Program-made: the position numbers and the translations under genes
The notes under the pieces: model-generated
Database searches by the model: none
What the model saw: the letters and a program-made list of their open reading frames with translations, nothing else
Told to the model about the DNA's origin: nothing
Source: an uncultured Chromatiaceae bacterium
GTDB lineage: Bacteria > Pseudomonadota > Gammaproteobacteria > Tenderiales > Tenderiaceae
DNA length: 64,000 nt
Assembly (NCBI GenBank): GCA_945787785.1
Contig: CALZIO010000007.1
Location: forward strand, 1-64,000
Reading direction: 5' to 3'
Shown: positions 47,312-55,888 of the stretch, in pieces
How the letters are laid out: each line of letters starts with the position of its first letter
Position numbering within the stretch: the stretch's first letter is position 1

Positions 47312-47486
47312 ATTTGCAACTACGTGCGTTTTATAAAATCATTGTAATTATTAAGCTGGACCAACAAAAATATCATGCTAAATTGATAAGTGTGGGCTGT
47401 TGATATTACAAATATAAATCAACCACTGGCTCTGCCCATTAATTTAAAAATTGAAAGCTGTGGTTGGCTGACAGGGAGTAAGGGAG

Positions 47487-50400
47487 ATGACCAAGAATAA
47501 CACGAGCATTCATTGGCTTCGTAAAGTTGGAATCACACTTGTATTTGTGTTTGGGCTGATTAGTATCATCGCGACAGGTGGGGGGGTGACTCAACGCCAG
47601 ATAGCGGGCCGATTGGACCCCAGGCTCAAGATACCGTCACGATAAATGGTTCCGTCACCGGCAGCGGTGGAATCGCTAATGTGCAAGTAAGTGCGGGTGG
47701 CCGCTCCGTGACCTCGGATCTGAATGGGTTCTACAACCTTAGCGATGTTCCTGTCCCCAGTAGTGGCTTACTGGTTTTGACCTACGAGAAAGATGGTTAC
47801 GCCACTTTTCAACGCACCATCCCGGTTGCAGCCAATGAAACCTATTCGGTCACTGCTAAACTGCTTCAGTATCATTATTCAGAGCCAGTCGATGCGACCA
47901 ACGAACAAAATCTTGTTGTAGGTGATCCGAACAATCCCGGCGGTAATCCTTTGGCCCAACTCTCTTTCCCGGCGGGAAGCCTTGGCAGCGGCAATGTCAC
48001 TGTTAATGTTGCAGTTGGTGATCCGACCACTGAGGAAGGTCGTCCGACCTTCCCCGGCGATTATATGGCGGCATCCACGCAAGGTGGTGATGCAGATACG
48101 CCACTGGAAAGTGTAGTATTTACCGAAATCACAATTAATGATGCCGCTGGCAATGAGATCACCCAGGTGAGTGAGGCGGTTAGTGTAACCCTGCGCTTGC
48201 CCGACAGCCTCCAGAGTGTCTACTCCGCCGGCGATACCATCGAGTGGTGGTCCTATGACGAAGTCAATGGCAGCTGGATTCGTGAAGATGCTGATCCCGC
48301 GACGCCGGATTTTGTCGATGACGCATTAGTTATCAATCAGGGCAGTGTGCTTTATGCTCAGGCCAAGGTAACTCACTTTACCTGGTGGAATGTCGACGCA
48401 CCGATGGATCAACATGCCTGCGTGTGCACTATAGTAGTGGGTACGGATGACCTGCCGCTGGCGGGTGAGCAATTGATCGCGGAGGGAATTACCTACAATG
48501 GCCGCTCCCGTCCTGCCAGCACTGGTGCTGATGGTAGGGCTTGTGTCACCGTGAAACGGAGCAGCGATAGCGTTACTGAGCAGATTCGTTTGTTCGTTGA
48601 ATCGGGCTCGGTGAAGTTTCATTACGATGTCATTGATTCTGCTGAGGGTGATGTAGGTAGCAATGCTATTTTTACGCCTACAATCGAGGGCAGCACGATC
48701 TTCAATACCGGTCAATGTGTGGATCTTGCCAATAATATTGCCTTGCGATACGACGGGCGCGTGACCGGTCAGGTTACTCTTAAAAGCACCGGTGCCCCCG
48801 TCGCCGGATATTTGATTAACTCCGATTTTGGTCCTGCCGCGACTACCAACAATGATGGTAACTATGAATTGGAAGTGCCGTTGGGTGTGCCGGTTACACT
48901 CTTCGCCGTCGGTCAGGTGGCGCAGACCGTTACCGTCCAGGATGCGAACACGCCGCAGGTGGTGAACTTCACTATCGATAATCGCAATCCGGTGATCGAC
49001 AGTGTTAACCGTGTTCCGGAAGGCAGCGTGACCAATAACCAGGCTGTGAATCTCACCGCCGCAGCCCATGACGATGATGGCGATGCCGTTACATTTAGCT
49101 GGAGCGCGGATCAGGGCAGTTTCAATACCACCAGCGGTTCATCCGTAACCTGGACAGCACCTGCGGCCGGTGCCGGGACGGCCACGCTAACCCTGACGGT
49201 AGCAGACGGCAACGGCGGCATAGCCACCCAGAACATTTCTATCGTCTATGCCGGTGGAGTACCCAGCGGCAATTCGCTGAGCTTTATCTTCAAAGATGAC
49301 GTCAGAGGTGATCAGCCCGTCGCTGGTGTGGTGGTGGCGCTGTACAATACCGATAATGTCACCATTGCCCAGACCAAGACCAGTGGCGTCAACGGCGTCG
49401 TGGATTTCGGTGATATTGGCCGCTCACGGGCCAGCTTTACAATTGTGTATGAATTGTCCACTACGTTTGGTTCTGCCGGCATGATCGATTCGTTTATGGA
49501 TATGCCAGCTGCCGATAACATCGTCTACTACACTGAAGAGGATTTTGGTGAGGAGACGGGCACAAGCGTCGCAACAGTCAATTACGCTTTGAGCGCTGCG
49601 CCGGCCAATGCAGGTCTGACATCGATCGAGCCCGGATTAGCATGGTGGAGTTTTCCATTAAATGCCGGTCAGCTTACCAACCAGACCGTACTTGACGGCT
49701 ATCTGCAAGACGATGGCAAACTAAGTTTATTAGCAATGGTCAACAGCGCCACTAATACTGATCAGTTGATTGGCTACGGTTATCTGTTGGATCAAACTGT
49801 CACCAATGGCGCGACATACGATATTGCGCTAGACACCGCGCCGGTAACGACTGGTTGGACTACCCAACCCGCCACTAACTTGAATATGATCGAAATCGAA
49901 GCGGCTCGTGGCGGTATTGATTACTACAGTGTCGGGGGGATAGCTGAGTTTTTTAGTGGTCTTGGCAGTTCAGGCAATATGCCAGTCGCCACCGAATTTC
50001 CAGCAGACTATTATTGGGTGTTTGGCGGAGCCGGGACAGAAGCGTCCGGATTCGAAAGCTCCAAACTTTACAACACCCTGCCGCAGTCGGTGGAATTACC
50101 CATCCCTGACTACAACTTCAGCAACGTTGTGTTTAATGATGCCTCTAACACCCTGAGTTGGAATCTTTCTGGTTCCACATCTCGTGATCTGGTTAATATC
50201 AATATTGAGGCTTTTGTTATAGGCGCAGGTGAGCAGTTTGTAAATTGGTCTGTTGTGATGTCGCCGTTGGGTACGACCTGGCAAGTAATGCAGTTACCGG
50301 CGCCTGCCAACACCTGGATTGATACGGCAACAATGGATAATGTTGTCGCGGCGCAGATCATGGCAGTTGATTTCGACTTTCTCTCCGGCATGGACCAAAC

Positions 50401-50599
50401 CTGGCAATTCTTCATCAGTGGTGGCTCTTTCGATAAAACTGCTAATCAGATCTTAACAGGTTGGACTATGGTGCCAGACCAGGGCGTACCGGCTGCTCTG
50501 ACACAAGCTGCAGCATCGCTACGCAAAACTGAGCCTAAAGCGTCAGTTGAGAAAAAACGTAATATGACACCAGGGTTGTCTAACCTGCGTAGACAGTAA
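47487..50599 (+). CDS. Large secreted multidomain protein, frameshifted in a poly-G tract
   Basis: An ATG at 47487 with GGGAG just before it starts an export signal (VGITLVFVFGLISIIATGG) that enters a run of seven G at 47580-47586. The frame then ends at 47643-47645. One more G would join it to the 972-residue frame from 47681 through DSTPDSGPIGPQ, giving ~1040 residues. The body shows a carboxypeptidase-regulatory-like repeat (GSVTGSGGIANVQVSAGGRS), a second similar repeat (~residue 365), a PKD/Ig-like domain (NRNPVIDSVNRVPEGSVTN), and C-terminal beta domains. Likely a surface or extracellular protein. As sequenced it would not be exported. Confidence 0.75.
47580..47586 (+). repeat. Poly-G tract (G7) at the frameshift
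   Basis: Seven consecutive G (GGTGGGGGGGTGAC context) lie just after the signal-peptide codons. Eight G keep the secreted-protein gene in frame; seven put it out; six create an immediate TGA. Such tracts slip readily in replication and can also be misread in sequencing. Confidence 0.85.
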
Positions 50600-50814: not shown

Positions 50815-51108
50815 TTAGGCGGCGTAGATGGGAATCACCTTCTCTGCTTCCTTCTGATACTCCTCAATCTCATTGAAGTTGAGATAGCGGTAGATATCAT
50901 CCGCCATAGTGTCGAGTATTTTCACTGCATCAATGTATTCTGCGACACTGGGGTTTTTGCCCAGCTGGGCGCACACAGCTGCCAGCTCGACCGAGCCGAG
51001 ATAAACGTTGGCGTCAATCCACAAGCAGTTAGAAAAGTTGCGTGTAGAGGTTGAGATCACAGTAATGCAGACAGTCAAGCAGTCGGTGAAACGAGTTTGG
51101 TTGCCCAA
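50815..51108 (-). pseudogene. Duplicated 3' fragment of aconitase B
   Basis: A 97-codon frame that aligns with the last ~93 residues of the full AcnB encoded at 53324: [35 protein letters not shown] and EKVIPI-AA match nearly exactly. The N-terminal part is scrambled (TDCLTVCITVISTSTRNF against [13 protein letters not shown]), and there is no start for a complete enzyme. Identity is clearly below that of a fresh duplicate. It begins within 25 bp of the amylosucrase stop codon and has the same orientation as acnB, so the amylosucrase gene is bracketed by direct repeats of the acnB end. Confidence 0.85.
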
Positions 51109-51132: not shown

Positions 51133-53085
51133 TCAGGCGACGCGCGCGAGTACCATAAGCTGGTAGGGTTCAATCACGAGTTCCTGAGTCGCGGTGATTA
51201 CACGCCCAGCATAGAGATCAACCATAGTTTTACGCATGCCCATCTGCCGTAGGCGCCGGGCCTCGAGACGTTGCTCCAGTTCACTGAAGTTGGCCAGCAC
51301 AAAGACCATGTGCTGCCCGTTACTTCTAAAGAAGCCGAACACCTGCTTATTGCCGGTCTGTACGAACTCCGTTTCGCCACGGGCGAAAGCCAAATTTTGG
51401 CCGCGGAGCTGAATGAGGCGCAGCAGCCCCTGATAGACGTGCCCGGCGGGTGATTCAAGTTCGCGGCGCTGTTCAGCCCGTTCCCAGTCGAATTGCGTGC
51501 GGTGCAGCCAACGTGAGTCGCCCACCTTGGCAGGATCCTTGTCATAGCCATATTCATTGAGCGTAGCAATCTCGTCGCTGAGATAGATAAGAGGAATCCC
51601 CCCCATTGTGATTATTACGCCGTGGATGAGCAGGGTGCGCCTCACTGCAAGCTCCAGCCCGGTGTCATCCTGCTCCGCGAGTGCCTTCTCGATGCCCGTG
51701 AGTGAGGAGCAGGTGCCAGAGACACGGGCTTGTCCAGTGCGGGGGTCTTCCTGGAAGGGTGCGCCATGGGCGAAGCTGCCATCGAAGTGTCCAGTGTAGA
51801 AATGCGTCAGGAAGCGGCGGTGCTCGTCTGGATCGAAACCGAAGGCCTGCACATCATCATTGGCAAATGTCCAGCCAATGTCATCGTGGCAACGTACATA
51901 ATTCACCCAGCAGCAGCCTTCCGGAATGGTGTAGCGGTGCCCCATGGCGTAATGAAGCACACGCGTGTCCCGGGTAGCAAGTGCCTCCCACAGCAAGGCC
52001 ATTAGTTGTGGATTATAAGAGAGCTGGCATTCACCCATGTCGATATATTTATTCACTTCGTCTGGGTGCACGATGGCCTCGGATTTAAACACCATTGCTG
52101 GTGCAGCGATACTAGCAATGGCGTTGAATGCCTGGATGATCCAGTGGGCCTCTGGCAGATTTTGCGAATTGGTTCCAAGCCGCTTCCAGATGAAGGCAAC
52201 GGCGTCCAGGCGCAAAATCTCTACCCCTTGATTGGCGAGGAATAGCATCTCCTCCAGCATGCGGTTGAACACCTGCGGGTTCTCATAGTTAAGGTCCCAC
52301 TGATAGGTGTGGAAGGTGGTCCATATCCATTTTTTAATGCGGGTTCGATAAGTGAACGCTCCGGGATGATCCTCGGTGAATACCTCCGGCATAGTGCGCT
52401 CGAATGCGTCAGGCATCTCCCGGTCGGGATACATGCGATAAAAGGCTTGGTACTCCTTGTCACCGGCCAGGGCCTGCTGTGCCCACTCGTGTTCATCCGA
52501 GGTGTGGTTGAAGATAAAATCAAGAACCAGGGAAATGCCGTGGTGACGTAGTTCCGTGGCGAGCGCCGCCAGGTCTTCAGTAGTGCCCAGTCGTGGGTCT
52601 ATCTCGCGGTAGCTGCTGACCGCATAACCGCCGTCGTTATCGCCGGCTGGGACTTTGAATGGCGGCATAAGGTGCAGATAGGTAATGCCGAGTTCAGTAA
52701 GTTAGGGTATGCGCTCACGCAGTCCCTTAAGGTTTGTTGCGAAAAGATCTACATAGCACATGGCTCCCACCATGCGATTCGAGTGATACCAGTTCGGATC
52801 TGCTTCTCTCAGAGCATCCAGCGCTTTTAGCTCGGCCGGGCGTTCCAGCCACATCTCGGTCGCGGAAGCCAGCATGCTCTCCAGATGATAGTAGAAGTCG
52901 TAGTGCGTGCCGTAGAGGCCATGAAGGCGCTCGAACAGACGCGGGAAGTGTCGTTTAATCCGTTGTGTATAGGCCTGCCATTCAACAGCATCCGTTCTGT
53001 CTTTAAAGCGGGTCTCTATCCGCGGCAAGAGTCGCTTAAGGGCTGTGGCGCTATGTTCTTGCAGCCAGTCTTGGCTATTGGCCAT
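51133..53085 (-). pseudogene. Amylosucrase-like glucosyltransferase (GH13) with one in-frame stop codon
   Basis: The ATG at 53085 has AGGAGG before it. The frame reads NSQDWLQEHSATALKRLLPR, the amylosucrase N-domain, to GLRERIP, then a TAA (52702-52704), then LTELGITYLHLMPPFKVPAGDNDGGYAV in the same frame. A single base change from a Tyr codon explains it. Downstream the catalytic machinery is complete: nucleophile Asp in RLDAVAF, acid/base Glu in FKSEAIVHPDEV, and the transition-state Asp in CHDDIGW. Such enzymes make alpha-1,4-glucan from sucrose. Without readthrough the product is inactive. No sucrose-synthesis genes are nearby. Confidence 0.85.
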
Positions 53086-53323
53086 TGATCCTCCTGTTTG
53101 GGTTTTCATGATGCAGCATTGCGCGTGCATAGAGCAAGTTACGTGGTGTTAGGGTTGCTCGTGTTTCGGCCCACTGGCTAGGGATATGGCTAAAATGTGA
53201 TTGGTGCGTTGCGCGTCGCGCAAATAATAATTGTTACTTATGTATTTGGACTAAACCCACAGTGGGTGATATTTAACACCTCACCTTGCCCTCTCCTCTT
53301 CAAGAAGAAAGGGCATAAAGGCG

Positions 53324-55888
53324 CTAAGCCGCAACGATCGGAATTACCTTCTCTGCCACTTTTTGATACGACTCAATCTCATTGAAGTTGAGATAGCGGT
53401 AGATATCATCGGCCATGGTGTCGAGCATTTTCACCGCATCCATGTACTCAGCCACAGTGGGTATCTTGCCCATCTGGGCACAGACCGCGGCCAACTCGGC
53501 TGAGCCGAGATAAACGTTGGCATCTTTACCCAGACGATTGGGGAAGTTACGCGTCGAAGTGGACATGACAGTAGAACCATCTGCTACACGTGCCTGGTTG
53601 CCCATGCACAGCGAACAACCTGGCATTTCGGTACGGGCACCCGCTTTGCCGTAGATGCTGTAGTAGCCTTCTTCGGTGAGTTGATGGGTGTCCATTTTGG
53701 TCGGTGGGGCAATCCATAAACGTGTTGGCACGGAGCCACCAAAGGCTTCCAAGACTTTGCCTGCCGCACGGTAGTGACCGATGTTGGTCATGCAGCTGCC
53801 TATGAAGACTTCATCGATCTTGGTGTTGGCCACTTCAGACAACAACTTCACATCGTCCGGATCATTGGGGCAGGCGACGATGGGTTCCTTGATGTCAGCC
53901 AGGTCGATCTCGATGATCTCGGCGTATTCGGCGTCGGCATCGGCTTCCAGCAATTCAGGCTTGGCCAACCAGGCTTCCATGGCCTCGATACGACGGCTAA
54001 TCGTACGCTTGTCTTCATAGCCGTTGGCGATCATCCACTTCAGCAGAGTGATATTTGAATTCAGGAATTCAATGATGGGTTCTTTACTCAGCTTGACGGT
54101 GCAGCCGTTGGCGGAGCGTTCGGCCGAGGCGTCTGACAATTCAAAGGCCTGTTCGACCTTGAGATGTTCCAGCCCTTCGATCTCCAACACGCGACCTGAG
54201 AAGACGTTTTTCTTGCCCGCCTTTTCAACCGTCAACAGACCTTTCTGGATCGCGGCGTAAGGAATGGCGTTGACCAGATCACGCAGGGTGACGCCGGGCT
54301 GCATCTCGCCTTTAAAGCGCACCAGCACCGACTCAGGCATATCCAGCGGCATGACGCCCAGGGCGGCACCGAACGCCACCAGACCGGAACCGGCCGGAAA
54401 ACTGATACCAATCGGGAAACGGGTGTGTGAGTCACCGCCAGTACCAACGGTATCAGGCATCACCATGCGATTGAGCCAGGAGTGAATCACGCCATCACCA
54501 GGACGCAGGCTGACGCCGCCGCGATTTTGGATGAATTCGGGCAGTTCGTGCTGCAGATTGATGTCTACCGGCTTAGGATAGGCGGCGGTATGACAGAAAG
54601 ACTGCATCACCAGGTCCGCCGAGAAACCCAGGCAAGCCAGCTCTTTAAGTTCATCACGGGTCATGGCGCCAGTGGTGTCTTGTGAGCCGACCGTGGTCAT
54701 GCGTGGTTCGCAATAGGTGCCGGGACGCACGCCCGCAATACCACAGGCCTTGCCGACCATCTTTTGTGCCAGGGTGAATCCCTTGCCGGTATCAGCGGGA
54801 ACGTCGGGACGCATAAATGTTTCTGAAGGTTTCAGACCCAGGGCTTCGCGAGTTTTGTCGGTTAGTGAACGACCAATAATCAGCGGGATTCGGCCACCGG
54901 CGCGGATTTCGTCCGGCATGGTGGAGGGTTTCAGATCAAAGCTGGAAATCACTTCGCCGGCTTCATTTTCGATCACGCCATCATAAGGTTTGATCGTAAT
55001 CACATCGCCCATATTGAGTTTGCTCACATCGCACTCAATGGGCAGGGCGCCGGAGTCTTCGGCAGTATTAAAAAAGATCGGGGCGATCTTGCCACCCAAT
55101 ATTACGCCACCCTGGTGTTTGTTGGGTACGTAAGGGATCTCGTGGCCCATGTGCCACAGCACGGAGTTAATAGCAGATTTACGCGAAGATCCGGTGCCGA
55201 CCACATCGCCGACATAGGCCATTGGGTGGCCTTTCTGTTTCAGTTCTTCGATCTTGTTTAAACCATCAGGCATCTTACTGATCAGCATGGCCTTGGCGTG
55301 CAGAGGAATGTCGGGGCGGCTCCAAGCTTCAGAGGCAGGTGACAAGTCATCGGTATTGGTTTCACCCTCGACCTTGAAGACGGTGATCTTGATCTCTTGG
55401 GGCATCTCGGCTTTGTTTGTAAACCAGTCGGCATTGGCCCAGGCATCAGCGACCTGTTTGGCGAACTCATTACCAGCCTTGGCTTTTTCGATGACATCGT
55501 TAAAGGCATCGAACATCAATAGGGTCTTGGACAGGGCCGTCACAGCAATGGGTGCCAGCTCGCCATCGTCGAGCAGTGAAATCAGTGGTTGGATGTTGTA
55601 GCCGCCCAGCATGGTGCCAAGCAGTTCAGCAGCCTGTTTTTTGTCGATTAGAGGCGAGTTAGCCTCGCCCTTGGTAATGGCAGCGAGAAAACCGGCTTTA
55701 ACGTAGGCGGCCTGATCAACACCGGGTGGAACGCGATGTGTGAACAGCTCGACAAGTGCTTCTTCTTCACCTGTAGGCGGGGTCTTGAGCAACTCAATTA
55801 AATCAGCAGTTTGCTGGGCATCCAGGGCGAGGGGCGGCAGCCCCTCATTGGCGCGTTCTTGTACGTGTTGGCGGTATGTTTCTAACAC
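53324..55888 (-). CDS. acnB: Aconitate hydratase B
   Basis: An 854-residue TCA-cycle enzyme that interconverts citrate and isocitrate, with an N-terminal HEAT-like domain (~1-160) peculiar to AcnB. The 4Fe-4S ligands are in the C-terminal half ([17 protein letters not shown]). GTG start at 55888 with GAGG ~7 bp before. Full length for the family. Its last ~93 codons occur a second time, diverged, at 50815. The 190 bp to the divergent response-regulator gene should hold its promoter. Confidence 0.97.

Follow-up and report, generated by a model that had tools for sequence, protein, structure and literature searches.

Architecture of the locus

The window, a 64-kb stretch of DNA from a MAG of an uncultured environmental gammaproteobacterium (3.06 Mb in 135 contigs, 83% complete), contains on its forward strand a short ORF of 52 codons (47487..47645) that encodes a signal peptide, MTKNNTSIHWLRKVGITLVFVFGLISIIATGGG, followed by an out-of-frame tail that ends at TAA 47643-47645. 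A Shine-Dalgarno-like AGGGAG (47473..47478, same strand), recognized from the sequence, lies 8 nt upstream of the ATG at 47487, and the signal peptide matches the N-terminus of the orthologue L017, MIHNNLQRNWLQRVGLVLVFTVGLLSILATGGG. A G7 run (47580..47586, forward strand) encodes the Gly linker that follows the signal peptide, and it is at this tract that the frame changes: the frame of the signal peptide and that of a large downstream body (47588..50599, forward strand; 1,003 aa) are offset by one nucleotide. In the body frame, no stop intervenes between 47564, just past a TAG, and 50599. The tract is placed as in a contingency locus, in that an indel would toggle the frame of the body downstream.

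The ORF coordinates thus bear out the original prediction that signal peptide and body lie in different frames at the G7 run, and the orthologues described below are fused in one frame. The body had also been put at about 970 residues; a large out-of-frame body is indeed present, but the length does not hold, as the value of 972 assumed a start at GTG 47681..47683 (forward strand), whereas the orthologues give ~1,003. This GTG is the first possible start codon in the body frame and, because it lies inside the conserved first domain, is unlikely to be the native start.

The conserved part of the body starts immediately past the tract (INGSV.GSGGIA... in the orthologue alignment). Pfam identifies two domains, an N-terminal CarboxypepD_reg-like one and a Big_9/PKD-like one at 465-552, and a basic tail forms the C-terminus; NCBIfam returned PKD-like repeat matches only. 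An all-β AlphaFold model of the body, built from a six-sequence alignment, had low confidence (mean pLDDT 58) and was set aside. The protein is best viewed as a multi-domain, exported β protein of lipoprotein ancestry, and it may have served as an adhesin or in another surface role.

The frame change might be bypassed if ribosomes or RNA polymerase slipped on the G run, where a -1 shift would join the two frames, or if translation began internally at GTG 47681. An open and conserved body would be compatible with expression by either route, but we regard this as very improbable. Slippage would have to occur on a zero-frame T GGG GGG GTG, which is non-canonical relative to the X XXY YYZ heptamer, and no stable structure was found 3' of the run (z = +1.1 to +1.2); a programmed frameshift was rejected on the absence of this downstream structure. 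Internal initiation would begin within the first domain and yield a protein that lacks an export signal. Moreover, the orthologues need no shift at all.

Orthologues and past selection

One genome scan identified five orthologues (L013-L017) in gammaproteobacterial MAGs, each 51-67% identical to the window protein over nearly the whole length, although one is cut by its contig end. They share domain order and the basic C-terminal tail with the window protein. All five carry an N-terminal signal peptide or lipobox in one frame with the body, whereas the window gene is split; based on this comparison, what was once one gene appears to be genuinely disrupted in the window. The tail itself (GLSxLRRQ or SLGHLRRR; window 50540-50599) is conserved at the ends of L013, L014, L015, and L017.

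The signal-peptide end varies within the family. The lipobox Cys (SGCGG; VVSGCGG) is kept in L013-L015, while AT[GN] is found instead in L016, L017, and the window protein, so that lipidation appears to have been lost within this one family. In L017 the signal peptide ends in ATGGG, lacking the Cys, as it does in the window protein.

The G7 run by itself is unremarkable: two G/C runs of at least 7 are seen in the 64-kb window against 1.27 +/- 1.26 expected from second-order Markov simulations, a chance-level occurrence. It is the broken frame that goes beyond chance, because five orthologues are fused at that site. The nearest of them, L017, has an in-frame G6 (...LLSILATGGGSDDDGDD..., coded GGC GGG GGG AGT), and in the other four the Gly codons are broken up or there is no Gly run, so that G6 is the longest run seen at the tract site in any of the five. 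Judged from these alignments, the G tract is not a conserved device.

These observations bear on the possibility of phase variation raised in the original prediction, in which slippage on the G run would switch a surface protein on and off; at this locus, a very short run would toggle export of a large adhesin-like protein in the population. The layout on which it was based stands, in that the tract occupies the 5' coding region directly past the signal peptide of an exported protein, the parent gene was intact, and the body has been retained although out of frame. Short tracts can vary, as shown by C6 in bvgS of B. pertussis (PMC1891110) and by the A7/A6 frameshift alleles of the 5' homopolymer in inlA of Listeria monocytogenes, for which population alleles and reversion rates were measured (PMC2831843). 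However, G7 is shorter than the minimum of 9 applied to poly-G tracts in Neisseria phasome screens (PMC5953494) and does not reach the Bordetella threshold of more than 8 (PMC1891110), and a run that is at chance frequency and unconserved among orthologues argues against a selected switch. We therefore consider a phase-variable locus unlikely, and the switching part of the prediction gains no support other than from the layout.

Codon comparison of the body with L017 gave dS ~1.5, which is near saturation, and dN ~0.24, with dN less than dS in every segment; the body was therefore under purifying selection until recently. The frame of the 1,003-codon body is fully open, with no second lesion. 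Since 2.9% of possible substitutions would create a stop, ~100 neutral substitutions (3.3% of the length) would make a stop 95% likely. Purifying selection together with the lack of any further stop therefore indicates that the lesion is recent, fluctuating, or not real. A frame broken relative to intact orthologues and past purifying selection with no further lesion are the features of a recent frameshift pseudogene; an artefact or a switch would explain the absence of a second lesion just as well as recent loss.

Other G/C tracts in the genome

We examined 63 G/C tracts of at least 7 on contigs C1 to C47, among many such runs in the MAG. Forty-five lie within long uninterrupted ORFs, 13 have no long ORF across them, and 5 fall at the edges of ORFs; some of those read in detail are intergenic, and others share the frame of a start codon (L042). 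A comparable break, with a signal peptide out of frame with its body, was seen in none of the other 62. Neither an excess of runs in the window nor several such loci among the 63 tracts, as would be expected of contingency loci, was found, and the window tract being a single case also speaks against phase variation.

The same survey bears on a slip in the assembly or consensus, in which the organism would be in frame and the MAG consensus would have miscounted the run or taken a minority read path. A genome in 135 contigs and 83% complete, a body that is otherwise pristine, and a family that is intact elsewhere would all be consistent with such an error. However, the other homopolymers examined give no sign of the same error: 45 of the 63 tracts, a G11 among them, lie in uninterrupted ORFs, which indicates that runs of this kind are as a rule counted correctly in the assembly. 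We consider a slip doubtful on balance, though a better prospect than phase variation. Widespread assembly frameshifts were considered and rejected, as codon-model segmentation of the window gave no other obvious mid-gene frame switch; its extension to all survey stretches is a rough check, chance start codons being common.

The longest tract is the in-frame G11 (L028 1496-1506; contig C2:129195-129205 of the same genome), which lies in the gene of an exported protein and encodes the Gly linker that follows its signal peptide. At the position of the G11, the nearest two relatives, loci in G002 and G009, have PRAPGGG or PSAPGGG instead. Judged by length, this is the best phase-variation candidate seen in the genome.

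A poly-G linker as a recurring N-terminal switch was also rejected: a codon search for I-x-[TS]-G-G-G in the same genome and 94 relatives gave unrelated genes (e.g., murA) or noncoding frames. That the motif is not repeated at other N-termini in these genomes is a further point against phase variation at the window locus.

The clpB-acnB interval

The gene lies between clpB and acnB, an interval whose length and content vary between congeners, and the locus is therefore accessory. A search of six congener genomes, five of them incomplete MAGs, did not reveal the gene. The adjacent amylosucrase gene (51133-53091, reverse strand) is broken by an in-frame TAA (52702..52704); both pieces flanking the TAA match well to solved amylosucrases, and congener G005 has an intact copy, 83% identical. 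This break is a substitution-type stop and not a homopolymer error, which weighs against an assembly slip. Two adjacent single-lesion genes would fit relaxed selection on the interval.

A complete acnB is located at 53324-55888, and a remnant copy of its 3' end occurs at 50815..51108 (reverse strand), a 79% nucleotide repeat of 53324-53573 with a 76% amino acid match. The remnant suggests acquisition of DNA at the acnB 3' end. It flanks the amylosucrase gene and, together with the differences between congeners, suggests that the clpB-acnB interval is an insertion hotspot.

Proposed loss of the exported protein

We propose that the window locus reflects recent inactivation, by a single indel, of an accessory exported β-domain protein that was formerly a lipoprotein, a reading to which we give about an even chance. 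An indel of the one-nucleotide class would have hit the Gly-codon run that links signal peptide and body, within an accessory region where the adjacent gene is broken too. Translation from 47487 would then pass through the signal peptide, leave the frame at the G7, and terminate at 47645, so that the body would not be produced from the G7 allele. The tract itself would be a by-product of GGG codons in a low-constraint poly-Gly linker and not a selected switch. G7 is presumably the true majority allele, and its loss of function recent and unselected; a single indel in G7 is revertible in principle. A recent null mutation or, as the second choice, a slip in the assembly or consensus accounts for the data at least as well as phase variation.

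Relation to known systems

The locus resembles the poly-G contingency loci of Neisseria, Campylobacter, Helicobacter, and Bordetella (for example, tcfA and bapC in B. pertussis) in having a 5' G tract in a surface or exported gene whose remainder is intact but out of frame. It differs in that the tract is only a G7, is unconserved, is a single case among the tracts examined, and comes from the consensus of an environmental MAG. In inlA of Listeria monocytogenes (PMC2831843), a short 5' homopolymer in a surface protein gene likewise gives rise to a recent, revertible null allele, although that tract is poly-A and the one in the window poly-G. The locus is also similar to recent frameshift pseudogenes of accessory regions, with one lesion, a conserved body, a broken neighbour, and a gene undetected in congeners, and here it is known from one MAG consensus.

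The main lesson so far is caution against inferring phase variation from one MAG consensus. Phase variation here, if it occurs, would widen the known range of contingency loci to include an uncultured environmental lineage. If the disruption is real, it would be another example of Gly-codon runs at the linker between signal peptide and body acting as fragile points for loss or switching.
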